From NCBI GenBank assembly GCA_026197095.1, contig JAPHTF010000119.1:1-64000 (forward strand): DNA of 64,000 bases. Reading direction: 5' to 3'. Below the pieces are notes generated by a model. The model ran no database searches, was not told the DNA's origin, and was given only the letters and a program-made list of their open reading frames with translations. The stretch is from Gammaproteobacteria bacterium. Lineage in GTDB: Bacteria > Pseudomonadota > Gammaproteobacteria > UBA6429 > Thiohalophilaceae. Below, in pieces: positions 1,983-22,565 of the stretch (within the stretch, counting starts at the first letter, position 1; each line of letters starts with the position of its first letter). The position numbers and the translations under genes were made by a program.

Positions 1983-2486
1983 CTATTTTAACGCTGGTGC
2001 GTCGCCAATTGATATATCAGGAAAAAGATCAAATTGTACAACTTCGCCATCCTCTACAGCATTAAATACACGTACTGCATCCATAGTACTAATCAGTGAG
2101 TCATATTTAGTGTTTTGTTGCGACAAGATAGTAATATTTGTTTTCTCGGGGTAACTGGCTTTAATCTGCTTTAAAACACTATTAAGTATTTTGAAATGAC
2201 CATTCGTTTCAAATGTAGGGATATTTTTTATTACACGATTATTATTGTCTGTAACCAGAAAATATTTTTCACCCATAATTACGTTAACTTCAAACGTTTT
2301 CTTGTTAGATGGCGAACTACTTGTTTGAGTCGTTGTGGGTAAATTAATATCAAGAACGGTCAAATGTGTAAACACAGTTGTAATGAGCAAGAATGGCACA
2401 AGAATAACCATCAGGTTCATAAACGCAGTAATGTCGAGTTCAACACTTTCAGGAATGCGCACTCGTCTGGCAGTTCTTTTACTCAT
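1983..2486 (-). CDS. ExbD/TolR-family subunit with Asn in place of the membrane Asp
   Basis: 167 residues with ExbD topology: a basic start (MSKRTARRVRIPESVELDI), one membrane helix (about 20-40, TAFMNLMVILVPFLLITTVF) and a periplasmic domain. The position equivalent to the catalytic membrane Asp is Asn24 (AFMNLMVIL). A nearby acidic residue, Asp18, lies before the helix. The protein is therefore probably a structural or regulatory partner of the Asp-containing ExbD next door, not a proton carrier. Paired, non-identical ExbD subunits are known in Agl-type motors of Myxococcus (AglQ, AglS). The gene starts 2 nt after the ExbB stop, and its own stop is 8 nt before the next start. Confidence 0.88.
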   Translation of the reverse strand: MSKRTARRVRIPESVELDITAFMNLMVILVPFLLITTVFTHLTVLDINLPTTTQTSSSPSNKKTFEVNVIMGEKYFLVTDNNNRVIKNIPTFETNGHFKILNSVLKQIKASYPEKTNITILSQQNTKYDSLISTMDAVRVFNAVEDGEVVQFDLFPDISIGDAPALK

Positions 2487-3300: not shown

Positions 3301-3591
3301 TCACTGTTTATCTTTTTTCGATGAATATATCTGGAAATAGCGAATTCTGCGCTTAAAATTATCTCTGTCCACCGGTGCTAATGCTTCGTCAATCAGGCTT
3401 TCAATTGGCGGGGCATTCATATCGGGCAATTCAGAATTTTTCCATGGCACAATATAAAGCATCTTTGGCAGTTCTTTATTGCCAATAATGGACATACCTT
3501 CTAATTCTATTCTGTCTTCTGCTGATAGTGGCCCGTTAAAAATCATTAACGTGATAACCATCAAAAATTGAAATATATTTTTATTATTCAT
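3301..3591 (-). CDS. Small exported protein of unknown function
   Basis: 96 residues. An N-terminal signal peptide (MNNKNIFQFLMVITLMIF..., likely cut after PLSA) leaves a mature part of about 70 residues containing IELEGMSIIGNKELPKMLY and a basic C-terminus. I do not recognise a named family. It lies between the TPR lipoprotein (stop at 3604) and the ExbB/ExbD genes, 12 nt from the former, so it probably belongs to the same periplasmic complex. The length, the signal peptide and the in-line spacing all argue that it is real. A role as an adaptor between the TPR proteins and the motor is only a guess from position. Confidence 0.75.
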   Translation of the reverse strand: MNNKNIFQFLMVITLMIFNGPLSAEDRIELEGMSIIGNKELPKMLYIVPWKNSELPDMNAPPIESLIDEALAPVDRDNFKRRIRYFQIYSSKKDKQ

Positions 3592-7072: not shown

Positions 7073-8955
7073 TTTACAACACCTGCGTTAGTGCTCTCTG
7101 TATTTGAATTTTCAGGCAAGGTCATCCGGTCATAGAGCCGTGCAAAAGAATAGTTTGCGCGGGTGTGATAGTTTTTAATCTGAGCATAACGTTGTTGTAA
7201 AGAAGCGCTTGCTCGTTTCTCAATAAGTTTTTCTTGTGATGAAAGAATGCTTGTGATTTTTTTTAATAAGTTATCGAGTTTTATTTCTTTATCTTTAATT
7301 CTTTTATCAAACCCAGAAAAGGCAGAGGGCGCATTTGTTGTAGATTGCTTAAGTGACTGCAGGCTCTTAGTCGAAATATCTAATGCCCTGTCAACCTGAT
7401 TAAGTTCGTTTTTGACTTTCCAGAAGCGAGGTGCATAATCAGTACTGATTTCCCAGAGTACTAATCCGCGAAGTAACTGGTATTTTTCTGCTTCTTCGGA
7501 GAAATCTTCATTTTTGCTAAGATGTTTTAAAGATCGTCCAATTTTATCAAGACTAATTAATATCTCTTTTTCATCTTCTGTTGCCAGGGCGTAAAAATTA
7601 TTATGTTGTTTTATTTGATTAATTTTGGCTGCCAGCTTATTCCGTTTTTCTTTCAATGCAGTAACAAGTATTAAACGTGAATCATTGCTTGTGGAACGTT
7701 GTTGCTTTTTATAGTAGGTGTTTCGTTCTTTCAGCATTAAGTAATATGCTGAAAATTGATTTTTCCACTTACTGAGATTTTTATGTAAATAAATCAGGTC
7801 TAAATAATTTTTATGGATTCTTTGAAAATCAATATCATTAAGAAGGTGATGAATATAAGGCACTGAAATTGAGCCCGGCAATTTATTTTTGTACTCAGTA
7901 GCTAAAATATTTTCAGTCACCATTGCAGGTCTTAATGCAATTAATAGTTGACCTGACTTTACTGCTGATATCGCTGAATTTATTTTTGTTAATTCTTTTT
8001 TATAGTTATCAATGGCATAGGTGTAATGTTGTAATGCAAGTTGATTTTTGTCCATTTTCTCCAGCGTGTAAGGTATGGCTAGCAACGATTCCTGGACAGC
8101 CGTATCTATCACAGGCCAGTCACGTAACTCCATCCAGGGAATGAGCGCTTGCTCAAGTTTATTTTGTTGTTGGTAAGCCCAGCCGATACCTAGCAATGCT
8201 TTAGCGGATAAAGGACCTTTCAAGCGAACTTTTTGTAAATATTTGGTTGATATCTGCGGGTAGTTTTGTCGTATATAGGCATAACCCAATGCAACATTGG
8301 TTTTATCTCTTAATGCTTTGAGTTCTTCGTCACTTGTTTTGAGATCACTTATCTGTTTTAGTAATTCGCTACCTTCTTTGTTTTTACCGCTCTTAATCAG
8401 GTATATCCCTAAATTATATTTTGCATAAATCTGCCAGTCTTCATGCGCATCAAGTTGCTTAATTGCTTCAAATGCTTTCGAAAAATCTTTTTGCTTCAAA
8501 TAAGTGTTCGCCAGCATATTTTGTCTTTCAGCTTCTCTTTCCTTTGATAAGGAACTTTTGACTTTAATTAATGCTTTGTTGGCTTCGTTATAGAGTTGAC
8601 CTTGATAGCGCATTTTCCCCACATTGAACCACGCACGATCTTGCGTTTCTTCTGCCGTGTTATTTTCAATTAAGCCGGAAAAAATATTACTGGCATCCTG
8701 ATGTAATCCGTAATAAAGATATAAGCCTCCTAATAGTAATTCAGGATCAACTTCCTGCGAGGTAATAGGGGCGCGGTCTTTTGCCACCATCAGGTTAGTA
8801 ATAGACGTAAAATATTGCTCCTGATAAAAATGATATAGCGCTTCACCATAACGTAAATCATTAACCTGATGTGGTTCACGCTCAGCAGCCATACTGCTTA
8901 TTGCTAAAGATGCAATAACAGCCGTTGTGATACCTTGTTTTAATAAATGAATCAT
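7069..8955 (-). CDS. Exported TPR-repeat protein
   Basis: 628 residues. The cleavable signal peptide (MIHLLKQGITTAVIASLAISSMA, cut before AEREP) has no lipobox, so the protein is probably soluble in the periplasm. The N-terminal half carries TPR-like repeats (LYHFYQEQYFTSITNLMVAK, AWFNVGKMRYQGQLYNEANK, AKYNLGIYLIKSGKNKEGSE). The C-terminal third (about 410-620) is rich in Lys, Glu, Leu and Gln and probably forms coiled coils. It shares a 4-nt overlap with the following TPR gene and begins 18 nt after the stop of the coiled-coil protein at 8974. Its function is unknown beyond a scaffold role inferred from repeats and context. Confidence 0.85.
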   Translation of the reverse strand: MIHLLKQGITTAVIASLAISSMAAEREPHQVNDLRYGEALYHFYQEQYFTSITNLMVAKDRAPITSQEVDPELLLGGLYLYYGLHQDASNIFSGLIENNTAEETQDRAWFNVGKMRYQGQLYNEANKALIKVKSSLSKEREAERQNMLANTYLKQKDFSKAFEAIKQLDAHEDWQIYAKYNLGIYLIKSGKNKEGSELLKQISDLKTSDEELKALRDKTNVALGYAYIRQNYPQISTKYLQKVRLKGPLSAKALLGIGWAYQQQNKLEQALIPWMELRDWPVIDTAVQESLLAIPYTLEKMDKNQLALQHYTYAIDNYKKELTKINSAISAVKSGQLLIALRPAMVTENILATEYKNKLPGSISVPYIHHLLNDIDFQRIHKNYLDLIYLHKNLSKWKNQFSAYYLMLKERNTYYKKQQRSTSNDSRLILVTALKEKRNKLAAKINQIKQHNNFYALATEDEKEILISLDKIGRSLKHLSKNEDFSEEAEKYQLLRGLVLWEISTDYAPRFWKVKNELNQVDRALDISTKSLQSLKQSTTNAPSAFSGFDKRIKDKEIKLDNLLKKITSILSSQEKLIEKRASASLQQRYAQIKNYHTRANYSFARLYDRMTLPENSNTESTNAGVVK

Positions 8956-8973: not shown

Positions 8974-9501
8974 TTATTCCCAAACTTTAGTTTTAAATTC
9001 AGGTTGTTGTTTGGATAAATTATCAATGATTTTTAATTCAACAAATAAAGGTGAGCTTGTTTTTTCTATTTCAATTGTCGTACCACGTTTATAAGCTCGT
9101 TTATTTGGACCTTTGCCGGTAAAGAAGGCAACTAATTCATGTTTTCCTGATGCGATATTTCCCAGGTAAACGCGTTGAACACCACCGCGTTTAAGCGCGT
9201 TGATTTCACGCTGAGTGTAAAGGTGGTTACTAATGTTTTTGCCATCTATATTGATTTGTACTGAATCAAGATCGAATAATTGACCTATATCCATTGACAA
9301 AAAAATACTGAACTGTGTATTGGCAGGAAAAAGTAAATCTTCTTCAAGGATGAACAGCTCTTTATTTAAATCAAGTACTTCTTTTTTGAGGTTTTGTACC
9401 TGGCTTTCTAATGCGGGAGATCTTTCTTCTGCACAGGTAAAAGTTGAAATACTCAAAATTAAAAGTATGCTCGTGATATGTAGTAGTTGTTTATAAAACA
9501 T
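8974..9501 (-). CDS. Exported coiled-coil/beta-domain protein of unknown function
   Basis: 175 residues. A signal peptide (MFYKQLLHITSILLILSIST..., cut near TCA/EER) precedes a short heptad-rich coiled coil (about 30-58, SQVQNLKKEVLDLNKELFIL). The remaining beta-rich domain (about 60-170) has an Ig-like or carrier feel (VQINIDGKNISNHLYTQ, VQRVYLGNIASGKHELVAFF). No family name was recognised. It sits between the DUF3570 gene and the TPR trio with 18-nt gaps on both sides, so it is almost certainly part of the operon. The coiled coil may mediate oligomerisation with the TPR proteins (inference). Confidence 0.8.
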   Translation of the reverse strand: MFYKQLLHITSILLILSISTFTCAEERSPALESQVQNLKKEVLDLNKELFILEEDLLFPANTQFSIFLSMDIGQLFDLDSVQINIDGKNISNHLYTQREINALKRGGVQRVYLGNIASGKHELVAFFTGKGPNKRAYKRGTTIEIEKTSSPLFVELKIIDNLSKQQPEFKTKVWE

Positions 9502-9519: not shown

Positions 9520-10665
9520 TTAAAACCAAACAGAAACAAAAAGTTGCATAATGTTTGCACTAAATTTATATAAAGGTTCAGTGCCTGGCGTATAACTTGT
9601 TAGCCGGGCATCTCGGAAATCTTCATAGTTAAACTGAATATGATCAAACTTAAAATTAACCGAGGCTTTATCTATAAAGCCAACTTCCGATTTAGCAAAC
9701 TCATAACTGACACCAAAACCAATAGTGCTGTTGTTAAATGTGCTGAGTTCTTTGTCCCGGGCCATAAAATTTTGTGCGTTTGAATAAGGGAATAAGTCGC
9801 TGTAAAAATTTGCTTTAGATTGGGCGTACGTTCTGAAGTGGGTTTCAATGGTCCAGTTTTTCGCAAAAGGGTGGGTATAGCCTAGTTCAATATTATTTCC
9901 AGCAATGCCCCACGAATCTGTAAATCTTCTAAATTCAGCATGAAGTGCTGCACGGTAAGGGAGAAAGTATCGCCCTCTAACAGCAAGTGCATTACTCGTA
10001 CGTGTTTTTGGATATACCTCATTTTCTAAAAGAAATGTTGTAGGCGTATCAATGTAACGTACTTTTCTATAAGGGTTGTTTAAAAATCCAGAGTCTGTTG
10101 TAACATCAAATGCTGCAGACATAATCAAATTTTTTGTGATGACTTGTGCAAGACTGAGATTGAAGTTGTCACTTTGCGATATCTCTGAAAATAAAGGATC
10201 ACCTGTTTTGCCAACTTTATTGCTGCCATGGGCATACCCCATAGAGACTGTTGTTAAATCACCAAATACATCCTGACTTATACCAAATGAAATAGTATCG
10301 GCTATAAAATCATTTTCTTTACTGTTGGTATAACCTAAACTCATTAATGTTTTTTCATTAAGAAAATCTATTGAAAAACTGTTTTCGACACGCTCTTCTT
10401 CATAAGTACTGGCACCCAGAATTACCTCAACATCAATGGATGCTGAACTTATGGTATCAACATAGTGTTTAGCTGAAAGCGATACACTGTCGCCAGCATT
10501 TGTTCTTACCAGAACAGCAGGACCTGTGATATCAATACCACCACCAGAGTATGAATGGTATAGCGCATCAGCACGTTCTTCTGGCAATACTGCAGCATTG
10601 CTCGAGATGCTGAACAATATAATCAATGGAACTAAATAAAGATGTAGGGCCTTAGTTACAACCAC
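9520..10665 (-). CDS. DUF3570 outer-membrane-barrel-like protein
   Basis: About 381 residues from a GTG start at 10665. I chose this start because a textbook GGAGG lies 5 nt upstream and because it yields a normal signal peptide (MVVTKALHLYLVPLIILFSI..., cut after SSNA). An upstream ATG at 10722 would add 19 residues lying inside the DUF4266 gene and spoil the signal. The mature protein begins AVLPEERADALYHSYSGGG and continues as long amphipathic beta strands ending in LFVSVWF, typical of outer-membrane barrels. This matches the DUF3570 family as I know it. Its start overlaps the DUF4266 stop by 14 nt. DUF3570, DUF4266, TlpA-like and ApbE genes are often neighbours in other genomes (recollection, unverified). 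Confidence 0.85.
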   Translation of the reverse strand: MVVTKALHLYLVPLIILFSISSNAAVLPEERADALYHSYSGGGIDITGPAVLVRTNAGDSVSLSAKHYVDTISSASIDVEVILGASTYEEERVENSFSIDFLNEKTLMSLGYTNSKENDFIADTISFGISQDVFGDLTTVSMGYAHGSNKVGKTGDPLFSEISQSDNFNLSLAQVITKNLIMSAAFDVTTDSGFLNNPYRKVRYIDTPTTFLLENEVYPKTRTSNALAVRGRYFLPYRAALHAEFRRFTDSWGIAGNNIELGYTHPFAKNWTIETHFRTYAQSKANFYSDLFPYSNAQNFMARDKELSTFNNSTIGFGVSYEFAKSEVGFIDKASVNFKFDHIQFNYEDFRDARLTSYTPGTEPLYKFSANIMQLFVSVWF

Positions 10666-10873
10666 AACCGCCTCCGGAACCACCTTCGGCACCACGAGCG
10701 CCTTCACGGGCTTGGTAGACATGATGCATATAACCTTGTGACAGAGGATCCTGACTAAAACTCATAATCGGATCAGCAAGGTTTGCTCGCTCGTAGGGTT
10801 TAACCCAGGGCTCTAAGCTACATGCACTTAAGCTGAGAAAAACTAAAAGGCTGAAAGAGAATTTATACAACAT
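10652..10873 (-). CDS. DUF4266 small lipoprotein with Cys-rich tail
   Basis: 73 residues. The lipobox LSLSAC (Cys18) is followed by SLEPWVKPYERANLADP, the hallmark of the DUF4266 family, and then MSFSQDPLSQGYMHH. The protein ends in a Gly-rich tail carrying two cysteines (GGSGGGCGCN). A lipid-anchored small protein with a terminal CGC suggests metal binding, disulfide chemistry or covalent attachment. The TlpA-like thioredoxin lies 2 nt upstream and would be a natural thiol partner (inference). The codons for the Gly tail also serve as the ribosome-binding site of the DUF3570 gene. Function is unknown in any organism to my knowledge. Confidence 0.85.
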   Translation of the reverse strand: MLYKFSFSLLVFLSLSACSLEPWVKPYERANLADPIMSFSQDPLSQGYMHHVYQAREGARGAEGGSGGGCGCN

Positions 10874-10875
10874 GA

Positions 10876-11385
10876 TTATTCTCTTAACAGCTTCTTAATC
10901 TGCTTTTGATAATCATTTTCATAACCAGGTTTGTAGCCTTTATGCAGGAAACGTTTATTGCCATTTCTATCAATAAGGATTGTTGTTGGCATGGCGCTTA
11001 CATCGTAAAGTTTGCTTGTTTTATTTGTACTATCAAATAAAACAGGGAAACTCACTTTTACATCTTTTAGATATTTTTTAGCCGCGCTTGAATTCTGTTC
11101 AACATTGACACCTAACAGTGTAAAACCAAGGCGTTTATATTTTTTATGAATTTTTTCCAGTAGTGGCATCTCTTTACGGCACGGACCACACCATGATGCC
11201 CAGAAATTTAGCATTACAACTTCACCTCGAAGCTCAGATAATTTGATGTTTTTTCCTGAGCGGCTTTTAAGTGTGAAGTTTGCAGCTTTACCCGATATTG
11301 TTTGTGACGCCGCATAGCTTGTCGAAGTTGCAAATACCAGTGTAAATCCGACTACTATTAGTGTTTTTAACATATTGTTTTTCAT
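10876..11385 (-). CDS. TlpA/ResA-type periplasmic thioredoxin
   Basis: 169 residues. A signal peptide (cut near SYA/ASQ) is followed by a thioredoxin fold with active site WASWCGPC (Cys66, Cys69) and a cis-proline loop (SAMPTTILIDRNG). The fold is of the TlpA/ResA type, which reduces specific periplasmic disulfides, for example in apocytochrome c or copper sites. The start is supported by GAGG 6 nt upstream. It lies 2 nt ahead of the Cys-tailed DUF4266 lipoprotein and 22 nt after a barrel gene. Likely clients are the CxxCH proteins encoded at 12917-19901 or the DUF4266 tail (inference). Confidence 0.93.
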   Translation of the reverse strand: MKNNMLKTLIVVGFTLVFATSTSYAASQTISGKAANFTLKSRSGKNIKLSELRGEVVMLNFWASWCGPCRKEMPLLEKIHKKYKRLGFTLLGVNVEQNSSAAKKYLKDVKVSFPVLFDSTNKTSKLYDVSAMPTTILIDRNGNKRFLHKGYKPGYENDYQKQIKKLLRE

Positions 11386-11407: not shown

Positions 11408-12085
11408 TTAGAAAAAGGCTGAAAGACCAAAGGTCACTTCCAGGTTATTTGCTGTTTTATCTTCAGCAAGAATATCTATATTGAAAATATGATTTCGCAC
11501 ATCAATATGCAAAGCTAACCAGTCAGTAGCAAGTAACCTGAATCCGCCACCCATATTAATAGTTAATTTATCACTGCCCGCAAAAGTGGTATTTCCTACA
11601 CCGGCAATAAGATAAACAGTACTGTTGAATGATGTGTTGCGGGTTAAGAATGATTCACCGGGTAATAAGTTATAACCAATAGATACATTGTAGTAGAGCA
11701 CTTCACGCTGTGCAGCAGTTAACAGTGGAGTACCGCCACTTAAGCGTTCATAACTTGTTTGTCCTGCTTTAGATTTAGCTAATGAGCCTTCAATGAAAAT
11801 ATCTTCATTCAAGTGATAAGCAAGGCGGATACCCATGACAGCGTTCGCACCAAAATCTTCAATGCTGAGAACACCCATGAAAGCCGTTGCTTCAAAATCT
11901 TCAGTGTCTATTTTATCTAATATAACAGTGCGTCGTTCAATTTCGGGCTGGATCAATTGTTCTGTTTGAATTTGTAATGGCGCAGTTTGTTCCTCAGCAT
12001 TTATATTAACTGAAGAAAAAACGATTACTGTAAAAGCAACACTATGTATTGCTTTTAGAAGAAAACGGCGAAACCAACTTGCCAT
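11408..12085 (-). CDS. Outer-membrane beta-barrel protein
   Basis: 225 residues. A signal peptide (cut after NINA/EEQ) is followed by a short linker and an eight-strand-type barrel (FMGVLSIEDFGANAVMGIRL, VYLIAGVGNTTFAG, LEVTFGLSAFF). The C-terminal Phe is the usual signal for BAM-assisted insertion. The start ATG at 12085 has AGGA about 9 nt upstream and overlaps the end of the preceding barrel gene by 31 nt. It forms a tandem pair with that gene (12055-12807), reminiscent of the tandem small outer-membrane proteins in myxobacterial gliding clusters (GltA, GltB). That correspondence is an inference from architecture, not from sequence comparison. Confidence 0.85.
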   Translation of the reverse strand: MASWFRRFLLKAIHSVAFTVIVFSSVNINAEEQTAPLQIQTEQLIQPEIERRTVILDKIDTEDFEATAFMGVLSIEDFGANAVMGIRLAYHLNEDIFIEGSLAKSKAGQTSYERLSGGTPLLTAAQREVLYYNVSIGYNLLPGESFLTRNTSFNSTVYLIAGVGNTTFAGSDKLTINMGGGFRLLATDWLALHIDVRNHIFNIDILAEDKTANNLEVTFGLSAFF

Positions 12086-12807
12086 GATGTTATTTCCTCA
12101 TTTTTGTCTCTGCTTTGAAAAATAATGTGTTTTTTTAGGTCGGTTCTTATTAAGAAGCTTCGTGTTAAGTACATTTTTAACCCAAGACTGACATTTGCAG
12201 TAAAGTCGGTATCGTCTTCAAGTTGTGATAATGTTGATTTAACCCGTGTACTAATGATCCCTCCACCTAAAGAAAAATAGGGTGATATTTTCCAGTCGGG
12301 AAAAGGTTGGTTGATTAAATTTATTCCAAGTAACTGTCGGCTGGAAAAATTACCGATGATCTGTGTGAATGATGCTTCAGTTGAAAGATTTTTTGTCAGT
12401 GCGTAACCGCCTGACAGCGTCATCATGGGTAAGCTACCGAAATTACCCCCAATCATGCTCATTTCCCATTTGTGATCGAGATAATCTTCACGAGTGATAT
12501 CCTTTATTTCAATTTCTTCATCATCAAGTGTTAATGTTTTTACTAGCTGTGAACGATGCACCCAGCCTTCATAATCTTTGTTATTTTTGATGAGGTACCA
12601 CGTAGTGCGCTGTTTTATAATAGAAATGGTTTCATCACGTTTAATAACATTTGTAATTGGATAGCCAACACTTGGACCGGTATGCATTTCAAGAAAGGGA
12701 TCGGCTACTTTTACCAGTTGTGCAGTATCTTCAGCATAAGTCATGGTCATGACTACATTTTGAAGCAAAATGAAAAGTAGAGTTAAAAGTCGCATGAGTA
12801 TTATCAT
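12055..12807 (-). CDS. SH3-domain outer-membrane beta-barrel protein
   Basis: 250 residues. The signal peptide is followed by a bacterial SH3-like domain (about 30-92, with FLEMHTGPSVGYPITNVIKR and WYLIKNNKDYEGWVHRSQLV). A beta-barrel then runs to a C-terminal Phe (WQVGFAVFF). An SH3b domain facing the periplasm often binds peptidoglycan or a protein partner, so this protein could link the outer membrane to the wall. The start at 12807 is uncertain: ATG at 12795 (MRLLTLLFILLQ) gives a shorter, more typical signal peptide, and neither has a clear ribosome-binding site. A hairpin lies immediately upstream. The 3' end overlaps the second barrel gene by 31 nt. Confidence 0.82.
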   Translation of the reverse strand: MIILMRLLTLLFILLQNVVMTMTYAEDTAQLVKVADPFLEMHTGPSVGYPITNVIKRDETISIIKQRTTWYLIKNNKDYEGWVHRSQLVKTLTLDDEEIEIKDITREDYLDHKWEMSMIGGNFGSLPMMTLSGGYALTKNLSTEASFTQIIGNFSSRQLLGINLINQPFPDWKISPYFSLGGGIISTRVKSTLSQLEDDTDFTANVSLGLKMYLTRSFLIRTDLKKHIIFQSRDKNEEITSWQVGFAVFF

Positions 12808-12916: not shown

Positions 12917-15697
12917 TTAGTTCGTAGGCACAGCAGGATCTAATGGGTTATTGAAATATTGTGCTCCACCATCTAACCATTCAGCGATAAGTTTTAATTC
13001 TGATGCTGTTAGCATTGTATTGTGATTTTGAGTATCTGCCGGCTGACTACCATTATTGTTCAAATCAAGTCCCGTCATTAATTCCATGAATAGACTACTA
13101 CGAGCGCCAGCCGTTGACATAGAAGGGTTTCGTTCAAAGGCGGGATCAGGAACAGTTTCCTGATCAGGGATACCATCTAAATTAGCATCTATTGGCGGAT
13201 CAATATCTCGGGTAATCATAATATTATTACCAGATGCATCCTGACCATCATCATTATTGAGTAACTCCTGATATGAAGTCAGGTGATCCGGTTCTATATT
13301 TGATGCGTTGCTTGTGAGTTCAAGTTGGCCTGCATTAATGTGCGCTAAACCTGCAGCAGTATGGCAGGTTACACATGAATTTGGTGCACGTGCTTTTTCC
13401 CATATCGGTTGAATATGTTGCTGATAATTCACCACGATACGGCAGTAAGTAAAACTCGCAACAGTAGTATCATAATTATTTGCACAAGCTGTTGTCGTTG
13501 AGGCTGCAGGTATTGTTAATGGTGATACTGGAACATCGGTATAATCAATAGTAAAACTTGCATCAGCAGAACGATTTGCTGCTACATCATTTGTCCATAC
13601 ATCTGAATAGATTAAATCTGTACTGGGTTTTAAATCAGAACAAGGTGTGGGATTAGTTGGTAAACAACTTTGGCGAGCACGCGTCTCGGCCATGGTTTCA
13701 CCAATTTCTGCCCATAAGGCATCAACTGAAAAGGGAAAGCCAATTCCTGTTGTGGGCGCACCTTGATTAAATGTGGATGCATAGTCAGGACGACCATGAG
13801 GTTTATTTGTGCTTTGGTTATTCGTGTTATGAACATGACAGCCAACACACTCAAGTGTTTCACCAGGTTTAACCTGGAACCAGGATTGGTGTCGATTACT
13901 AATACGTTGTCCATTTTTATCAAGTACACCAAGGGTGAGTGGAACATTGGCAGGTACTTTTATTTTAACTGAACCATCAGGCTCAATGGGAGCATAGCCT
14001 ACGATTTCACGCATGCCCTGTTGAGTGCTAATTCCATAGGCGGCGTTATCTAAACGAAGTACAGTACGATCCGGCACGCTGACACTTTTAGTTATACGAA
14101 TAAAACGGGCGGGGCGTTGATCTGAAGTGGTGTTTTTAGGATTAGCTATTTTCGCTGGAGAATCAATGGTGATGGGCATTCCATCATTATCAAGAACAGG
14201 TAATGTAGTGCCATATGTGGAAAAATTATTATCAAAATCATAAACACTACGAATATGCAGGACACCAACACCATCATCGGCAAAAGCTTGATTAATTTCA
14301 GCAGAAACACCGGGCACTTTGTCAAAAATAATTGGTGGTGTTGAAGTCTTATATGCCATGACGACTTCATTGAAAAGAGTATCTGCCTGAGGCAAGACCA
14401 ATGGAACCTGGGTGTTATTACTGGCATCAACCAGAAATATTCCGTAACTCGGTGGCGCTTCAACCAGATCAGGATTATTGAGCTGAGCTTGAGAAGCCAA
14501 GGTACAGGGGATAATTCGTGAAGCAGGATCGGTAGGGATTTCTAAAATTTGGCATTGTGCCCAGCTCATTAAAAAACGGTTTGAACCATCCATCATTGGG
14601 AAGGCTGCATTATAACGCCCCTTAAGAGATAACCCATTTACAGTTGTAACGGTTTGTTTAAAGGCTGATTGTGCAGTGCCTGAAATAAATCCTTGCTGAG
14701 ACCAGATAGGTTGCGTGTTATCGGCAAAGTCTTTGCCATTTATAAAGATAAAATCACCTTCACCAAAATTTGTTACAAAAGGACTAATCTTTGCCAGAAT
14801 TCGACCATCATCCATTTCACGTGGCATAGAAAAGTGTATGTCGGAATCAGGATCTTGCCCGGTACGATGGCTGTGTGCACCGTAATACATTTGAGTATCA
14901 CTACCATCAGGATTCATAGTGTAAAGGCTGAAATCATTACGGCCACCCATATTATTCCAGCGGGTAAATAAAACCCGGCCGCTGTCTTTTAGTACAACAG
15001 GGTATAAATCATGACTTGGGTTGAATGATACCTGATTAATCGTGCCATCAAGATTGAGTACATGTAGAGAGAATGATGAGTTACGGCGATTTTCATCCGT
15101 AGCGGTAAAGGTACCTCTGCCTTCGTTTACTCGCACACCTTTACCAATATTTTGGCGGGTAGAAGAAAAAATAATACGATCATCGGGAAGGTAATGAGCA
15201 GAGATATCATCCCCATCTTCCTGAATACCTGATGAGATAAGTGCTGTTAAAGTATCATTAAGAATATCGTATTCGTATAAATTCCAGCTTGGAGTAATAT
15301 TGTCGTTTGGATTTGGGTCTTCTAACCGTACTGAAAAAAGTAATTTATTTCCATCATATGAAACACTGACATCTTTAACATCACCTAGACCATTAGTTAT
15401 GCCACCAGTAATATTTTTTACGGCAGCGGATGCACTGGCACGTGCCTGTAAATATAAATCACCACCTTCAGTGAAGGCGGCGGGTTCGCGCATGTCATGA
15501 GTAACAATATCCCCATTTTGATCTCGGGGGGTTGGACGCTTAATATAAGCGATTGAAACATCCTGGATACCAATTGCACCAGCTTCAGAATCACCTTCAC
15601 CACCGCCACAAGCAGCTAGCAGTAAAAAAGTAGCACTTAAACTGAATAATTTTATAACAGGAGCATTTCTGCTCCTGCCTTTTTTATTCCGCAACAT
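12917..15697 (-). CDS. Di-heme-motif lipoprotein, hydrazine synthase alpha-subunit-like (HzsA-related)
   Basis: 926 residues. The lipobox is LLLAAC (Cys30, followed by GGG). Residues about 60-330 contain beta-propeller-like PD40/WD-type strands (DVSVSYDGNKLLFSVRL, YLPDDRIIFSST, VLFTRWNNMGGRNDFSLYTM). A middle region precedes two c-type heme motifs, CVGCH at Cys617 and CVTCH at Cys775. The domain order and the phrases around the first heme resemble proteins annotated as HzsA-related. Such proteins occur outside anammox bacteria, so hydrazine synthesis is not implied. Expected location: membrane-anchored, facing the periplasm or surface. It is the first gene of the minus-strand run, 109 nt from the next gene. 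It diverges from the cytochrome/DUF1501-like operon with a shared 248-nt control region. Confidence 0.8.
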   Translation of the reverse strand: MLRNKKGRSRNAPVIKLFSLSATFLLLAACGGGEGDSEAGAIGIQDVSIAYIKRPTPRDQNGDIVTHDMREPAAFTEGGDLYLQARASASAAVKNITGGITNGLGDVKDVSVSYDGNKLLFSVRLEDPNPNDNITPSWNLYEYDILNDTLTALISSGIQEDGDDISAHYLPDDRIIFSSTRQNIGKGVRVNEGRGTFTATDENRRNSSFSLHVLNLDGTINQVSFNPSHDLYPVVLKDSGRVLFTRWNNMGGRNDFSLYTMNPDGSDTQMYYGAHSHRTGQDPDSDIHFSMPREMDDGRILAKISPFVTNFGEGDFIFINGKDFADNTQPIWSQQGFISGTAQSAFKQTVTTVNGLSLKGRYNAAFPMMDGSNRFLMSWAQCQILEIPTDPASRIIPCTLASQAQLNNPDLVEAPPSYGIFLVDASNNTQVPLVLPQADTLFNEVVMAYKTSTPPIIFDKVPGVSAEINQAFADDGVGVLHIRSVYDFDNNFSTYGTTLPVLDNDGMPITIDSPAKIANPKNTTSDQRPARFIRITKSVSVPDRTVLRLDNAAYGISTQQGMREIVGYAPIEPDGSVKIKVPANVPLTLGVLDKNGQRISNRHQSWFQVKPGETLECVGCHVHNTNNQSTNKPHGRPDYASTFNQGAPTTGIGFPFSVDALWAEIGETMAETRARQSCLPTNPTPCSDLKPSTDLIYSDVWTNDVAANRSADASFTIDYTDVPVSPLTIPAASTTTACANNYDTTVASFTYCRIVVNYQQHIQPIWEKARAPNSCVTCHTAAGLAHINAGQLELTSNASNIEPDHLTSYQELLNNDDGQDASGNNIMITRDIDPPIDANLDGIPDQETVPDPAFERNPSMSTAGARSSLFMELMTGLDLNNNGSQPADTQNHNTMLTASELKLIAEWLDGGAQYFNNPLDPAVPTN

Positions 15698-15840: not shown

Positions 15841-15854
15841 TTGATACAGGTCAA
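15841..15854 (+). promoter_or_regulatory. FNR/Anr-type box in divergent promoter region
   Basis: TTGATACAGGTCAA matches the FNR/Anr consensus TTGAT-N4-ATCAA at 9 of 10 defined positions. A -10-like TAGATT lies at 15880-15885. A start site near 15889-15892 would place the box about 42-45 nt upstream, close to the class II activating geometry for the plus-strand operon. For the minus-strand HzsA-like gene the box is about 144 nt upstream of the start codon. It suggests induction at low oxygen by an FNR-family regulator encoded elsewhere. Confidence 0.55.
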
Positions 15855-15945: not shown

Positions 15946-17214
15946 ATGCAGAATTTTATGACTAAAGGTAAAAGTGAGCTGAGTATGATTATGAATAGTC
16001 ATCAAAGTAAATTAAGTACAGCCTTGTTTGCTTTATTATTGATTCTGACGGCTCAAGTATTTGCCGATTCTCGCACTCAAGCAAAACGAATGCATGATCG
16101 TTTGACCGGTGTCGCTCCAAGTCCTGCAGTTTTAAATTCAATGGAAGCATTACTTGATACAGGTAACTCTGCTGACGCGGTGGAAGCAGCGTATATCGCA
16201 ATGAATAATAAGCATTTTTATAATGCCACCCTTGTTAATTTAATTACGCCCTGGACGAATGAGGCTCGAGCCGTGTTTCCAGAGGACATGGACACTGAAG
16301 GCACATTAAATGACTACACTGCGACAGTAATTGGTGCCATTCGTGATGAAATTGATTTTCGCCGTATTCTCTATGATGACATTTTATATGTGGGGGCAGT
16401 CGGTGGGTTACCTGCATACAGTTATTCAAGTAATGCTCATTATCAAGTTTTAGAAGCGACGGGTGCGGATATGGGGGATCCTGGTGTTCTGATTCCTGTT
16501 GCTCAATCAGCAAATACCGGTGGTGTTTTAACTTCTGCCGATACAGCCGGAGTGATTACTACACGTGCAGCGGCAAAAGCATTTTTTGTTGATGGCACAA
16601 ACCGCGCAATGTTTCGCTTCACCGTATTAAACCACCTTTGTCAGGATTTAGAACAACTCAAAGATGTCACCTTGCCCGCAGATCGTATTCGTCAGGATGT
16701 ATCACGGAGTCCGGGTGGAGATAGTAGAATATTCATGAATGCATGTATCGGTTGTCATACCGGTATGGATCCTATGACGCAAGCTTTTGCTTATTATGAT
16801 TATGATAAGACAGCAAACAGGCTGAAGTTTGAAAATGGTGTTGTGCAACAAAAAAATCTTATCAATGCTGATAATTTTAAGCCGGGTTACATTGTAACCA
16901 ACAATAACTGGCTTAATTACTGGCGCCAGGGAAATAATTCTCTGCTCGGTTGGGACACAAGTTTACCCGGAAGTGGAGGTGGCAGTGGCGCAGCAAGTGC
17001 TATGGCCAGAGAGCTGGCACATAGTGAGCAGTTTGCACGTTGCCAGGTTGAAAAAGTTTTTCAAGCTGTTTGTTTGCGCCCAGCAGGAAATACGGCTGAT
17101 CGCTCTGCAGTGAATAATATTCTTGCTAATTTTAAATTGCCATTTAAAAAATCAACGGGTTATGAATTGAAGCGGGTTTTTGCTGAAACCGCAGTTTATT
17201 GTAAAGGGCCATAA
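15946..17214 (+). CDS. Exported c-type cytochrome-like protein with CxxCH-x2-MDP motif
   Basis: 422 residues from the ATG at 15946. ATGs at 15985 and 15991 give a more usual signal peptide (MNSHQSKLSTALFALLLILT..., cut after VFA/DSR), so the true start may be there. A single heme motif, CIGCH (Cys267), is followed by TGMDPMTQAFAYYDYD. This resembles the CxxCH...DP motif of DUF1588-type cytochrome proteins of planctomycete and other large exported clusters. There are further Cys residues near the C-terminus (FARCQVEKVFQAVCLRP, VYCKGP) but no other heme motif. It is the first of three plus-strand genes with short gaps (50 and 58 nt), probably cotranscribed from the FNR-box promoter. Function is unknown; a redox role follows from the heme motif. 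Confidence 0.8.
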   Translation: MQNFMTKGKSELSMIMNSHQSKLSTALFALLLILTAQVFADSRTQAKRMHDRLTGVAPSPAVLNSMEALLDTGNSADAVEAAYIAMNNKHFYNATLVNLITPWTNEARAVFPEDMDTEGTLNDYTATVIGAIRDEIDFRRILYDDILYVGAVGGLPAYSYSSNAHYQVLEATGADMGDPGVLIPVAQSANTGGVLTSADTAGVITTRAAAKAFFVDGTNRAMFRFTVLNHLCQDLEQLKDVTLPADRIRQDVSRSPGGDSRIFMNACIGCHTGMDPMTQAFAYYDYDKTANRLKFENGVVQQKNLINADNFKPGYIVTNNNWLNYWRQGNNSLLGWDTSLPGSGGGSGAASAMARELAHSEQFARCQVEKVFQAVCLRPAGNTADRSAVNNILANFKLPFKKSTGYELKRVFAETAVYCKGP

Positions 17215-17264
17215 CCTTTGCTGAATAAATATTGGAAGTCGTTTAATCGATGGAGTAATAAACG

Positions 17265-19901
17265 ATGAGAAAGACATCGGGCATAATCAAGTTAGTATCA
17301 CTCGCATGGCTTACTGTCATAGGCTTGAGTGCGTGTGGTGGAGGTGCCAGTACAGAAGGTAACCAAAATAGTGGTGGCGGGTCTGCTTCAGGTGGGTCGT
17401 TAATAACAGCGTCTACCTCTGCAGAAGTTATTGCTTATGAACAAAATGTTTGGCAGAACCTGTCGAGCCAAAGTCGTTGTGGACGTTGTCATTCTACTGG
17501 TGGACAAGCTCCACAATTTGTACATGGAAGCAGTATCGAAACAGCTTATGCCGCAGCGTTAAGTTTTGTTAACGGCGTACAAGTTGCAAATTTAGCTTCA
17601 CCAAATGATTCGCGTATGGTAACTGTAATTCGAAATGGCCATAAACAAGTCAATGGAAAATCACAGGCCTGTTGGTTAGCTACCGATGCAGATTGTGCTG
17701 ATGCTATTCGTGATTTTATAATTGCCTGGAATGGTGAAACAAGCGGAACAGCAGCAGTACCTCAAGGTGTGCAACTTGTGGCACCAAGTCCACTTCGTGA
17801 TGTTAGCGCAAGTAAAACATTCCCGCTTTCATCATCAGCTTTTGCGACATGGGTGCATACACCTTTATTAACGCAACATTGTGCAGGGTGTCATACCTCT
17901 ACAGCAGCAACGCCTATCGCCCCATATTTTGCTTCGAATGATGTTGATGCTTCGTATCTTGCGGCACAACAAAAAATGGATTTACTAGACCCCGCCAACT
18001 CACGTTTAGTTTTAAGGCTACGTGAAGAATTTCACAATTGCTGGAGTAGCGATTGTGCTGCTGATGCTAACGCGATGGAATTAGCTATCACAAACTTTGC
18101 CAATACCATTACTACTACCCAAGTTGATTCGAACTTAATTATTAGTAAAGCCATGAAGTTACAGCCTCCAGAAGCGATTATTGCATCGGGTGGTGAACGC
18201 CATGCGACTAACCAAATAGCATTGTGGGAGTTTAAAACTGGCACGGGTAACCAGGCATTTGATACAAGTGGCGTAGAACCTTTAATTAACTTGTCATTAT
18301 CGGGAAATTATAACTGGGTTGGTGGTTATGGCATTGGATTTACAGATGGACGCGCACAGGCAACTTACCAGGCTAGTCAGAAGTTACTTAATAATATTCG
18401 AACTCGAGGCGAGTATTCAGTTGAGGCGTGGATCATTCCTGCGAATGTTGTGCAGCAAAATAAAAATATCATTTCATACTCAGGCAGCTCAACAGAACGT
18501 AACTTTACTATTGCGCAAAATGAATACAACTATCAGTTTTATAACCGGGCAACAACAGGTGGCGCTAATGCGAACAATGGTGGCCCGGTATTAGAAACAG
18601 ATGCTAACGATGAAGACCTCCAGGCATCACAACAGCATATTGTAATGAATTATGATCCTGTTAATGGTCGTAGTATGTATGTGAATGGAGTATTAACAGG
18701 CGACATTGATGCAAATGATGTTGGTGGGCTGCTAACTGACTGGAATAATACTCATGCTTTCATTCTTGCAAATGAATTAGGTCAGTCAAACCCGTGGCAA
18801 GGAACGTTCCGTATGGTTGCGATACATAACCGCATATTAACGGATGCCCAAGTGCAGCAGAACTATAATGCGGGGGTAGGTGAAAAATTTTTCCTCTTAT
18901 TCAGTATTAGTCATATTCCGGGTGTCCCTGCAGACAGCTATATCAAAATGCAGGTAGAACAGTTTGATACATACAGTTACTTGTTTAATAACCCTGTTTA
19001 TGTGAACTTAGGCAATCCAACACCAACTATCGATTTCCCAATTGCAGGTATGCGTGTGGGTATAAATGGTAAAGAAGCTATTGTTGGTCAATCGTTTATT
19101 AATTTAGAGACTAATCGAATAACCACTAATAACCAGGAAATATCCAGGTTGGGTTCGGTTATTCAATTGCAACAAGGTACTCAAGTTGATGATTTCTTTT
19201 TAAGTTTTGAAACACTGGGTACACAAAATAATCCATTTGTTGTTGCGGCTCCTTCTGCGCCACCCGCGCCTGCTGATTTACCCGCGCAATCTGATATTGG
19301 AGTAAGAACGTTCTCTGAAATTAACGCAACGATGTCTGATTTAACGGGTGTGCCAACCAGCAATAATGCAGTTTTAACAAAATATAATTTGTTAAAGCAA
19401 CAATTACCCTCAGCTGAGGGGCTGGATGCATTTGGTCCAGCAAATATTATTGGTATTGCTCAGCTAGCTTTCGAGTATTGTGATCGGATGATCGAAGACA
19501 CCAGTATCACTGGCTTGTGTGAGAGGACCGGTACAACTATTTCTGCACGACAATGTATGTTTGATACCTTTGATTTTTCTCAAGCAGCAACTACCTCGGC
19601 CGCATTTACTGTACCTAATAAAACAGCACTTGCTAATGCTTTGTATGACAGGATGATTGGAATTCCATCCACCGCTTTAGGTGCAGAATTGGTTAATGCA
19701 CCTACCCGTGCTGAAATTACTGGTGAACTGATTACCACTGCTGCAGGAGGTTCATATCCTGGAAACCTGGTCAGTCGCCTGATAACTGAAAGTTGTCCAA
19801 CGGCCGAATTAGATTGTACAGCTTCAGGTTCAGGAACCAGAGAAATTGTAAAAGCAATGTGTACCTCGGTACTGGGCAGTGCTGCCATGTTAGTACAGTA
19901 A
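17265..19901 (+). CDS. Lipoprotein with two CxxCH domains and a LamG-like domain
   Basis: 878 residues. The lipobox IGLSAC (Cys24) is followed by a Gly/Ser linker. Two similar cytochrome-like domains come next, each with a heme motif and a later C-W...C pair: CGRCH (Cys72) with ACWLATDADC, and CAGCH (Cys206) with NCWSSDC. Residues about 320-545 read as a LamG/concanavalin-like jelly roll (GEYSVEAWIIPANVV, HIVMNYDPVNGRSMYVNG, FRMVAIHNRILTDAQVQQNY). The C-terminal 300 residues contain several Cys but no named domain. LamG domains in such exported cytochrome clusters usually suggest binding to carbohydrate or other surface ligands. Gene order links it to the DUF1501-like protein downstream. Confidence 0.83.
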   Translation: MRKTSGIIKLVSLAWLTVIGLSACGGGASTEGNQNSGGGSASGGSLITASTSAEVIAYEQNVWQNLSSQSRCGRCHSTGGQAPQFVHGSSIETAYAAALSFVNGVQVANLASPNDSRMVTVIRNGHKQVNGKSQACWLATDADCADAIRDFIIAWNGETSGTAAVPQGVQLVAPSPLRDVSASKTFPLSSSAFATWVHTPLLTQHCAGCHTSTAATPIAPYFASNDVDASYLAAQQKMDLLDPANSRLVLRLREEFHNCWSSDCAADANAMELAITNFANTITTTQVDSNLIISKAMKLQPPEAIIASGGERHATNQIALWEFKTGTGNQAFDTSGVEPLINLSLSGNYNWVGGYGIGFTDGRAQATYQASQKLLNNIRTRGEYSVEAWIIPANVVQQNKNIISYSGSSTERNFTIAQNEYNYQFYNRATTGGANANNGGPVLETDANDEDLQASQQHIVMNYDPVNGRSMYVNGVLTGDIDANDVGGLLTDWNNTHAFILANELGQSNPWQGTFRMVAIHNRILTDAQVQQNYNAGVGEKFFLLFSISHIPGVPADSYIKMQVEQFDTYSYLFNNPVYVNLGNPTPTIDFPIAGMRVGINGKEAIVGQSFINLETNRITTNNQEISRLGSVIQLQQGTQVDDFFLSFETLGTQNNPFVVAAPSAPPAPADLPAQSDIGVRTFSEINATMSDLTGVPTSNNAVLTKYNLLKQQLPSAEGLDAFGPANIIGIAQLAFEYCDRMIEDTSITGLCERTGTTISARQCMFDTFDFSQAATTSAAFTVPNKTALANALYDRMIGIPSTALGAELVNAPTRAEITGELITTAAGGSYPGNLVSRLITESCPTAELDCTASGSGTREIVKAMCTSVLGSAAMLVQ

Positions 19902-19959
19902 GTAATACTGTATGAGTGCAGTAATGTTAATAATGAATACAGCGTAAGGAAGTACTATT

Positions 19960-21573
19960 ATGGCAAAGAAGAAAAATCGAACCCTTCATCCGGATGAGCC
20001 ATTATTACATCCTGATCATTCACGACCTGTGACACGTCGTGAATTTGTTAGCCAGGGTTTTATTGCAGGTACAGGTGCTGTACTTGCACCTTCATTGCTA
20101 GGCATGCTTGCGAGTACCCGGCAGGCGCATGCATTGTCCAGTGATTTAGATGCACTAAAAGCAATTACTGAATGTAATATTGTTCCTGGTGCAGATAAGA
20201 TTCCTTTCATTTGTTTTGATCTTGCAGGTGGTGCTAACTTTGCGGGATCAAATGTTCTGGTCGGTGGGCAAGCTGGTATTGAAGACTCTTTAACTTCTGC
20301 CGGTTATAGTAAGTTGGGCATTCCTGGTGATCGCTTGCCTGACTTTGCGACAAACGCATTTGTAAACCGTGATTTAGGTATCCCTTTTCATTCTGAAAGT
20401 TCAATGCTAGCGGGCATAAAAATGCGCTTTACCAATACAACGGAGGTAAATGGTGCAGTTATTCCTGCTCGTTCAGATAATGACACGGGTAATAATCCGC
20501 ACAACCCGATGTATGGAATTAATAAAGCGGGCGCTCGAGGAGAACTATTAACACTTATCGGTTCTCGAAATTCTGTTTCGGGTGGTAACTCTATGTCACC
20601 GGCATCAATGATTGATTTGTCAGTACGCCCCACAAAAATTGATCGCCCGAGTGATACACAAGGTCTGGTTGATACAGGTGAGCTTGCCGCAAAAATGGGC
20701 TTGAATAATGCAACACGAGTTATGGAATCCATTCAACGTGTAAGCTCTGATAAATTATTTAATGCCAATGTACAAACTGGATTGAATGATATTGATCCAG
20801 ATACCTCGGCAACCTATGACGCAGGAATTAAAAAACAGGCCAATTGTGCATATGTAAAAAGTGCTGATATGGTTGAAAATTTTGGAGATCCAACAGCACT
20901 TGATTCAAGCGCAAATGATCCCGATATCGCACAAGTATTCTCTGCTGGAGATTTAGCCGGTGATGGCGAATTTCGCAAAACTGCAGCTGTTATGAAAATG
21001 GTACTTAAAGGCTATGCAGGTGCAGGGACTATTACTATGGGTGGTTATGATTATCATACCGGTAACCGAACTACAGGTGATGCACGTGACTTGCGTGCAG
21101 GCCAATGTATCGGTGCCTGTTTACGTTATGCTGAGATACTTGGCAAACCACTTATGATTTATGTATGCAGTGATGGTTCGTTGTCAAGTAACGGTACACC
21201 TGATGCGGGTGCAAATGGTAAGCTGGTTTGGACAAGTGATAATTCATCAACAGCATGCTCATTTTTTCTTGTTTATAAACCGGGCGGACGCCCTGTTTTA
21301 TTTACTTCGGGTAGTGATAGTTTTACAGCTGCACAACATCAACAGTTGGGTTGGTTCCGTTCTGGCGCTTCAGTTGAAACTAATGCCACGCCAGCAGCAA
21401 ATAATGTAAATTTATTAGTAGAAACAGTTATTTTAAATTACATGGCTTTGCATGGAGAAATCGGACAATTCGCTTCAAAATTCCCCAATCATGGTCTTGG
21501 AAATAATACGATGTTAGATCGTATGACTGCTTTTGAACCTATCGTTAATGGGACAGCATCAAATATAATTTAA
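19960..21573 (+). CDS. Tat-exported DUF1501-like protein
   Basis: 537 residues with a twin-arginine signal (VTRREFVSQGFIAGTGA, predicted cut after QAHA). Tat export implies folding, possibly with a cofactor, before secretion. The C-terminal half has the block GGYDYHTGNRTTGDARDLR followed by LGKPLMIYVCSDG. This is similar in layout to the GGWDTH...FSEFGR blocks of DUF1501 (sulfatase/phosphatase-superfamily-like) proteins. In planctomycetes DUF1501 genes pair with cytochrome/LamG genes, as here. The start is supported by AAGGAAG upstream. It ends 11 nt before the convergent apbE gene, with a small hairpin between. Some databases label relatives with secretion-system names; nothing in this sequence supports that. 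Confidence 0.78.
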   Translation: MAKKKNRTLHPDEPLLHPDHSRPVTRREFVSQGFIAGTGAVLAPSLLGMLASTRQAHALSSDLDALKAITECNIVPGADKIPFICFDLAGGANFAGSNVLVGGQAGIEDSLTSAGYSKLGIPGDRLPDFATNAFVNRDLGIPFHSESSMLAGIKMRFTNTTEVNGAVIPARSDNDTGNNPHNPMYGINKAGARGELLTLIGSRNSVSGGNSMSPASMIDLSVRPTKIDRPSDTQGLVDTGELAAKMGLNNATRVMESIQRVSSDKLFNANVQTGLNDIDPDTSATYDAGIKKQANCAYVKSADMVENFGDPTALDSSANDPDIAQVFSAGDLAGDGEFRKTAAVMKMVLKGYAGAGTITMGGYDYHTGNRTTGDARDLRAGQCIGACLRYAEILGKPLMIYVCSDGSLSSNGTPDAGANGKLVWTSDNSSTACSFFLVYKPGGRPVLFTSGSDSFTAAQHQQLGWFRSGASVETNATPAANNVNLLVETVILNYMALHGEIGQFASKFPNHGLGNNTMLDRMTAFEPIVNGTASNII

Positions 21574-21590
21574 TACTATCAGTATTATTT
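21572..21590. terminator. Short hairpin between convergent genes
   Basis: AATACT (21572-21577) pairs with AGTATT (21581-21586) around a 3-nt loop and is followed by ATTTT on the plus strand. It overlaps the stop codons of the two convergent genes. The stem is short and AT-only apart from one pair, so the terminator call is tentative. Confidence 0.35.
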
Positions 21591-22565
21591 TGCTGGTTTT
21601 AATCCCGAGCTGTAATGCATTTGGCCGTTGTTATCAATAATAATGGCTTCAATGCCTTTTAATGAAGACACTAGTTTCATCCCTTTGTGTAAGCCTAATA
21701 TAAATACCGTTGTGGATAATGCATCTGTCGTTGTGCTATTTGAACCTAAAATACTAACACTTCTTAATTCTCGTGCAGAGTCGCCTGTGCTGGGATTTAT
21801 GATGTGGTGATGACGAATATTATCTTTAATAAAGTATCGCTCATAATCACCAGAAGTAGATATCGCCGTATTATTTAAAGGTAAAATAACGGCAGATTTA
21901 TTTTTATTTCTGGGATGCCGTATTCCTACATACCATGGCCGACCATTTTTATCACCAATAATACGTGTATCACCACCAGCAGAAATCATAGCTTGTTTTA
22001 TTCCATGCTGTTGCAATAGTTTAATGGCATTATCAACGGCATGACCTTTTGCTATCCCCCCTAAATCAATTCGAGTGTTTGCCTGAGTAAAAAATATGGA
22101 TTGCATCGAACTATCCAGCTTGATATTTTGGTAGTTGATTGATTTTAAACGTTTACTGATTTCTTCTTTTGTTGGTTGCTGTTTTTTTCGATAATCATAC
22201 ATGTATCCAACACTGGCAAAAGTAATATCAAATGCACCGTTAGAAAGCTTTGATATGTTTATTGATTTTTTGATTAATTCAAAAAGTTCAGAGCTGATTT
22301 TTAGCGGATGATTGCTTGCATTAGCATTGATTAAACTCACCTCACTGTTTTGTTTATAGGGACTCATTAAGCGGTCAATGCGGTGCATTTCATCAAATAC
22401 GCGCTGGATATTTGCTTCGGCTATTTTTTTATTATCATGCCATAATTCAACATTTATGGCGGTGCCCATAATGGCTTTATTCGCTTTGTACCATTCGGCA
22501 TAAGCAGGTGTGTGAGTTAAAAATACGAATAAAAAAGTAATGAAATGTAGATTTGTTTTGGGCAT
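21585..22565 (-). CDS. apbE: Secreted FAD:protein FMN transferase (ApbE)
   Basis: 326 residues with a cleavable signal peptide (cut after AYA/EWY), so the enzyme works in the periplasm. The family blocks are all present: KAIMGTAINVELW, DLGGIAKGHAVD, SAGGDTRIIGDKNGR, STSGDYERYF, HHIINPSTGD and TTTDALSTTVFILG. The last includes the Mg-binding Asp/Thr loop. ApbE moves FMN from FAD onto a Thr or Ser of target proteins. I saw no clear target motif (S/T-G-A-S/T in an exported context) in the window, so the substrate may be elsewhere. Its place beside the DUF1501-like gene, in a region with DUF3570, DUF4266 and TlpA genes, suggests service to that system. Confidence 0.93.
   Translation of the reverse strand: MPKTNLHFITFLFVFLTHTPAYAEWYKANKAIMGTAINVELWHDNKKIAEANIQRVFDEMHRIDRLMSPYKQNSEVSLINANASNHPLKISSELFELIKKSINISKLSNGAFDITFASVGYMYDYRKKQQPTKEEISKRLKSINYQNIKLDSSMQSIFFTQANTRIDLGGIAKGHAVDNAIKLLQQHGIKQAMISAGGDTRIIGDKNGRPWYVGIRHPRNKNKSAVILPLNNTAISTSGDYERYFIKDNIRHHHIINPSTGDSARELRSVSILGSNSTTTDALSTTVFILGLHKGMKLVSSLKGIEAIIIDNNGQMHYSSGLKPAK

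Follow-up and report, generated by a model that had tools for sequence, protein, structure and literature searches.

A Conserved Trio of Exported Proteins Accompanies an Operon Joining Agl/Glt-Like Motor Genes and Redox Genes in Gammaproteobacteria

INTRODUCTION

Among the closest described systems to the locus reported here are two gene clusters. The seven-gene "core complex" (aglRQS and gltC, D, E, and G) of Luciano et al. 2011 (PMC3169522) is described in Gammaproteobacteria as a functional complex, with one additional gene that is not in Myxococcales, but its function there is published as unknown. Clusters of ApbE, DUF3570, thioredoxin, and DUF4266 genes are likewise published with an uncertain function (Meheust et al. 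2021, PMC8238504), and experiments established that ApbE flavinylates a Chlorobium DUF3570 member on [S/T]GA[S/T] motifs (PMC8238504). The main text of the first study has no mention of cytochrome, redox, or thioredoxin, that of the second has none of ExbB, TPR, gliding, or hydrazine, and we found no literature linking the Agl/Glt core to redox genes. Here, we analyze a 64,000-nucleotide (nt) stretch from a gammaproteobacterium of the Thiohalophilaceae (contig JAPHTF010000119.1, positions 1 to 64,000; the window), in which both clusters are joined in one operon beside three genes for exported proteins, A, B, and C (the trio). On balance, gene content and conservation favor a reading of the trio as an accessory to a single envelope-spanning machine with a motor half and a redox half. 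The joint operon and its strictly co-occurring trio yield a testable hypothesis for both clusters, by gene deletion in Alteromonas, Paraglaciecola, or Microbulbifer.

RESULTS

The trio and the divergent operon

The genes for A, B, and C lie on one strand, with about 50 nt between A and B and about 58 nt between B and C:

15946..17214, plus strand: protein A, secreted monoheme cytochrome with CIGCHTGMDP; probable distant DUF1588/DUF1585 relative
17265..19901, plus strand: protein B, lipoprotein with two CxxCH...HxCW cytochrome modules and LamG (Laminin_G_3)
19960..21573, plus strand: protein C, Tat-exported, with GGYDYHT; predicted fold with weak resemblance to the alkaline-phosphatase superfamily; unassigned in Pfam

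An initial annotation had placed three open reading frames (ORFs) at these coordinates, with CxxCH, LamG, and Tat motifs, and all of these are borne out, being invariant or nearly so in homologues. It had likened the trio to planctomycete-type clusters; rather than a free-standing set of that type, the trio appears as an accessory of an operon of redox and Agl/Glt-like motor genes. This operon, a conserved row of 15 genes, runs divergently from the trio on the minus strand, from 15697 down to 573. Its intergenic spacing is -38 to 22 nt, except for 109 nt between HzsA and SH3 and 185 nt before TolQ, and it presumably forms one transcript. An ApbE gene lies 3' of C on the opposite strand and heads the list:

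21585..22565, minus strand: ApbE (FAD:protein FMN transferase; Pfam ApbE, 283.9 bits)
12917..15697, minus strand: HzsA-like diheme lipoprotein with TolB-like beta-propeller, HZS_alpha middle domain (64.6 bits), and C-terminal heme domain
12055..12807, minus strand: SH3 domain and outer-membrane beta-barrel
11408..12085, minus strand: outer-membrane beta-barrel, OMP_myx_plus (TIGR04565, 166.7 bits)
10876..11385, minus strand: TlpA/ResA-like thioredoxin
10652..10873, minus strand: DUF4266 small lipoprotein with C-terminal CxC (Pfam, 7.4e-24, 84.9 bits)
9520..10722, minus strand: DUF3570, of a family flavinylated by ApbE (Pfam, 143.3 bits)
8974..9501, minus strand: conserved 175-amino-acid (aa) exported protein without known family (alignment A6)
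7069..8955, minus strand: TPR protein, 628 aa, in the GltC position and of GltC size (Myxococcus sizes from PMC3169522)
4223..7072, minus strand: large TPR lipoprotein, GltD-like, 949 aa
3604..4260, minus strand: TPR lipoprotein, GltE-like (NF033758, 1.1e-10)
3301..3591, minus strand: conserved 96-aa exported protein, encoded between the genes for the GltE-like TPR protein and TolQ; no Pfam match; also in relatives L197 and L200
2489..3115, minus strand: TolQ/ExbB (AglR-like)
1983..2486, minus strand: TolR/ExbD (AglQ/S-like)
1480..1974, minus strand: TolR/ExbD (AglQ/S-like)
573..1478, minus strand: TonB-like, AgmX/PglI C-terminal domain, GltG-like (NF033768, 64.9 bits; cutoff, 40)

Mechanical ORF calling conceals the DUF4266 gene, since the ORF called for DUF3570 (9520-10722) begins within that gene in a different frame; the true DUF3570 start is probably at about 10650, downstream of DUF4266. 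Both this overlapping gene and the divergent operon were missing from the initial annotation.

Linkage of the trio to the operon across genomes

At least 580 relatives of protein C came from scanning a collection of bacterial genomes, and the best 80 are from Gammaproteobacteria or are labeled just proteobacterial or uncultured. Their hosts include Alteromonas, Paraglaciecola, Aliiglaciecola, Microbulbifer, Aliikangiella, Thiodiazotropha, Sedimenticola, and many uncultured bacteria. One locus (L094) stands in a record titled as a Klebsiella pneumoniae metagenome-assembled genome, a title that looks like a mislabeled bin. Viral origin was rejected, since viral contigs yielded no relative.

All 47 loci from the collection with full flanks keep the order A-B-C, and the trio is therefore more than a chance arrangement. 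In every one of these loci the thioredoxin, both barrels, and HzsA diverge from A-B-C, as does DUF3570 in 46. This strict co-occurrence, whose absence would have counted against the initial annotation, agrees with its treatment of the three genes as a set, and loci from relatives show the same neighborhood across the window's family.

Co-occurrence was assessed in 274 genomes sampled evenly from the class Gammaproteobacteria. Protein C is encoded in 35 of them, and conservation of the trio extends to at least 26 gammaproteobacterial families, the number that these 35 represent. Sixty-three genomes encode the GltD-like TPR protein that stands for the core, 58 the 175-aa protein, and 42 the OMP_myx barrel. 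Of the 35 genomes with C, 33 have the core, versus 30 of the 239 without C (Fisher test, 9e-23), and C also co-occurs with OMP_myx (Fisher test, 2e-27), both values ignoring phylogeny. All 42 genomes with OMP_myx contain the core, and in 33 the two lie within 25 kb of each other. In the family to which the window belongs, 20 of 21 genomes with C have the core, versus 5 of 16 without C; presence and absence vary within this family, and gene order varies as well.

These distributions bear on another reading, which we consider improbable: that A-B-C form an independent gammaproteobacterial counterpart to the DUF1588/DUF1501 pairs and are simply often found next to the operon. Such a reading would fit the distant resemblance of protein A to DUF1588/1585, the true DUF1588-DUF1501 pair in another gammaproteobacterial genome (L131), and the three genomes in which A-B-C stands alone at a separate place (L158, L161, and L163). 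However, genomes with a stand-alone trio keep either the HzsA operon elsewhere in the same genome (G177 and G340) or the core (G232, in which an OMP_myx match was not found). The core is present in all but two of the 35 genomes with C; these two are G037, a contig-edge fragment, and G167, the sole complete genome without it, whose HzsA is broken.

The operon also occurs without the trio. In L149, L150, L153, L159, L196/L197, and L199, its HzsA is triheme and is accompanied by a small CX4CH lipoprotein, and the rows with consistent strands (L149, L150, L153, L196/L197, and L199) read ApbE-HzsA (three CxxCH)-CX4CH lipoprotein-SH3/barrel-barrel-thioredoxin-DUF3570-175-aa protein-TPRs-TolQ-TolR-TolR-TonB. 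Because the operon occurs without the trio, and because the genomes with a separate trio (G177 and G340) retain the operon, the trio appears to be optional: it depends on the machine, whereas the machine does not depend on it. The forms that bear the trio mostly have an HzsA with two CxxCH and no adjacent small CX4CH lipoprotein, which suggests that B replaces this lipoprotein. In the small lipoproteins themselves, the unusual heme-like CX4CH motif reads CSASACH or CSASGCH (L149:8673-9176 and L196:12341-12796).

Comparison with the Agl/Glt core

By gene content and domain type, the second half of the window operon matches the Agl/Glt core, and its putative motor would be related to the proton-driven Agl/Glt motor of myxobacterial gliding. 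As in the core of Luciano et al. 2011, TolQ, two TolR, an AgmX/GltG-type TonB, and three TPR proteins are encoded in one cluster, with an additional gene that is absent from Myxococcales and with several copies per genome. The equivalog cutoffs for GltG and GltE were not reached (41.5 versus 650 bits and 41.1 versus 225 bits, respectively). Unlike the published core, the window operon adds the HzsA-like, thioredoxin, DUF4266, DUF3570, and barrel genes, and the trio follows.

The window's own genome holds two further GltD-like copies, L155 (contig C88) and L156 (C169), with the whole core at C88. The C88 copy adjoins Nuo subunits and small proteins that, judged by eye, look like SoxZ and SoxY.

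Comparison with flavinylation clusters and hydrazine synthase

All four genes of the flavinylation clusters of Meheust et al. 2021 (ApbE, DUF3570, thioredoxin, and DUF4266) are present at the window locus. Unlike in those clusters, the flavinylation motif is degenerate in the window DUF3570, the motif in this locus family reading mostly SSAS...TTAS, and DsbD did not turn up in the locus proteins that were scanned. The HzsA-like lipoprotein aligns with the hydrazine synthase alpha subunit (PDB 5c2v; 6.5e-16) across the propeller, the CxxCH-containing middle domain, and the C-terminal domain. It was rejected as a hydrazine synthase: its 45.6 bits are far under the equivalog cutoff of 800, and no beta or gamma partner was found among the locus proteins scanned.

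With HzsA and B carrying hemes on lipoproteins of the outer-membrane type, and with barrels, a protein of a flavinylated family, and a thioredoxin encoded in one operon, the redox module and the trio could form an outer-membrane conduit that moves electrons to or from an insoluble or surface-bound partner, as a mechanically assisted extracellular electron transfer. A second type of core copy also adjoins a protein with 21 CxxCH motifs (L167:2-2176, minus strand). We nonetheless find a conduit rather doubtful: hemes are few (five in all), with no MtrA-like decaheme; no inner-membrane quinol oxidase is evident in the locus; and the system is present in aerobic Alteromonas and Microbulbifer.

Proteins A and B

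Protein A (422 aa) carries a Sec-type signal peptide and a single CxxCH with x2-MDP after it. The single CxxCH is found in 94 of 95 homologues in a survey of about 100, and the features of the protein are invariant or nearly so in an alignment of 17 to 18. The window protein has two sub-threshold Pfam matches (12.6 and 12.3 bits) in the expected order, the end of DUF1588 followed by DUF1585, and 7 of 17 homologues match PSD2/DUF1585, at best with 5.6e-5. Conversely, a profile built from 77 A proteins picks up a gammaproteobacterial DUF1588 protein with 20 bits, the match spanning 150 residues that include CxxCH-x2-MDP; the gene for this protein adjoins a true DUF1501 gene (L131/L195, another gammaproteobacterial genome). 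These matches indicate that A is probably a remote, shortened member of the DUF1588/DUF1585 cytochromes.

The initial annotation had drawn a parallel to the DUF1588/DUF1592-DUF1501 sets of planctomycetes, and it stands in part. Like the planctomycete-type PSCyt3 (DUF1588)/PSD2 (DUF1585) cytochromes with DUF1501 partners, A has CxxCH-x2-MDP with the flanking order and is paired with a Tat protein, a fair parallel to DUF1588-DUF1501 pairs. Unlike in those sets, DUF1592 and DUF1587 domains have no match in 17 A proteins, C has no DUF1501 match, and a diheme lipoprotein with LamG lies between A and C. DUF1552 (PF07586) had no match in 30 relatives, and controls gave none either.

That lipoprotein, protein B (878 aa; lipobox LSAC), contains two heme modules, C72xxC75H76...C136-W and C206xxC209H210...H257xC259W260, that are invariant or nearly so in 17 homologues; each CxxCH is followed by H-x-CW (or CW) and a C. 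Two CxxCH occur in 94 of 112 homologues. The predicted LamG domain is confirmed after both modules, Laminin_G_3 scoring 59.1 bits against a cutoff of 27.6.

Protein C

Protein C (537 aa) combines the Tat motif TRREF with MGGYDYHT. A twin-arginine motif in 104 of 111 homologues upholds the earlier prediction of Tat export. G361-G362-D364-Y365-H366 is invariant in 87 homologues, as are D87, S172, N174, D175, H181, D364, H366, D405, and D427, a set of residues that would suit a metalloenzyme.

The DUF1501-like domain proposed earlier for C found no support in profiles. Among 18 members, a Pfam scan assigned no family and gave no DUF1501 (PF07394) match at E ≤ 1, and HHalign against 32 DUF1501 proteins returned a probability of 13%, which rules out C as an ordinary DUF1501 protein at the profile level. 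After removal of signal peptides, the C-DUF1501 score was 21.3, whereas 40 column shuffles reached 19.4 at most; the score is suggestive but under any accepted threshold. The motif order sought was that of DUF1501, GGxDxH...TEFGR..NG..GTDHG, for which C reads GGYDYHT...SDGS.SNG..WTSDN; the weak colinear alignment places GGYDYHT on GGWDTH and SDGS-SNG-WTSDN on TTDFGR-NG-GTDHG. DUF1501 belongs by clan membership to the alkaline-phosphatase-like fold.

An AlphaFold2 model of C built from 87 sequences has a predicted local distance difference test (pLDDT) score of 83. The 50 PDB matches listed for it are alkaline phosphatases, phosphoglycerate mutases, sulfatases, PorX (with a PglZ-type domain), and one unassigned archaeal entry; all are weak (best Foldseek E, 0.008; template-modeling score, about 0.2), and a shallower model gave a similar list. 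The modeled fold is probably of the alkaline-phosphatase/sulfatase type. Because the motif alignment is colinear, if weak, and almost all fold matches are to the alkaline-phosphatase superfamily, a remote relation of C to DUF1501 is plausible but unproven. A sequence search of solved structures with A and C gave nothing useful.

The sulfatases among these matches, together with the LamG of B, are consistent with a machine that moves or modifies surface polysaccharide, in which LamG would bind the polymer, C would cleave an ester, and the cytochromes would oxidize the polymer. The Agl-Glt and Nfs machineries transport surface polymers (slime and spore coat) in Myxococcus (PMC3858216), and PSCyt genes neighbor sulfatases and carbohydrate-binding modules in Verrucomicrobia (PMC5615132). 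The catalytic activity of C is, however, putative, and no glycosyltransferase, polysaccharide exporter, or glycoside hydrolase was recognized among the scanned proteins in or beside the operon. Handling of a surface polymer is a possible, though not a likely, role.

A proposed model of the machine

Gene content, heme motifs, conservation, and co-occurrence are direct observations; for the favored reading, with the trio as an accessory of a combined motor and redox machine, we infer complex formation, an electron path, and a motor role as follows. TolQ, the two TolR, and the AgmX/GltG-type TonB would form an inner-membrane motor driven by proton motive force; from what is known of these families, proton flow through TolQR would move the GltG-like TonB and the TPR scaffold. 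The operon joins the genes for this motor, the periplasmic scaffold, and the outer-membrane barrels to those for a redox module of thioredoxin, DUF4266, the DUF3570 barrel (of the ApbE-flavinylated family), and the HzsA-like diheme lipoprotein. Family knowledge likewise suggests a short route for electrons at the outer membrane, comprising thioredoxin/DUF4266, the DUF3570 flavin, and the HzsA hemes. A, B, and C would sit at the outward end, the lipid anchor and LamG bringing B to the surface. LamG would bind a ligand outside the cell, which is probably a surface polymer or a glycan; the two hemes of B and that of A may pass electrons to or from the HzsA-like protein and the flavin; and C, folded before export, may act on the LamG ligand or its carrier.

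Several observations weigh against this model. An exact [S/T]GA[S/T] motif occurs in just 25 of 62 DUF3570 homologues, once in each, and the window protein has SSAS and LGAS. The Fisher tests of co-occurrence are uncorrected for phylogeny. C has no core copy within 20 kb in 11 of the 32 genomes with C and a located core copy, mostly because the two are on different contigs of fragmented assemblies. In the complete genome G167 (L162), the trio is present while the core and OMP_myx are absent and HzsA is split into two ORFs, an apparent natural decay of the machine. Finally, C lacks any significant match in structure or sequence, its best Foldseek E value being that given above.

A stronger version, in which a proton-driven Agl/Glt-type motor is mechanically coupled to a flavin/heme redox complex of the outer membrane as a categorically new envelope machine, with the trio as its exchangeable surface tool, is a speculative possibility. 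If it is true, mechanical work and extracytoplasmic electron transfer would be parts of one device.

Regulatory motifs and the operon end

The divergent promoter region contains an FNR-like box, TTGATACAGGTCAA (window 15841-15854). Conserved low-oxygen regulation through an FNR/ANR box was rejected, the best-match scores over 83 homologous intergenic regions equaling the shuffled expectation, and a sigma-70 promoter scan returned fewer sites than in shuffles. At the other end of the operon, the TonB-like gene is followed by a gene for a partial barrel-like protein (window 3-572, minus strand), which is also present in relative L200 (16335-17021).

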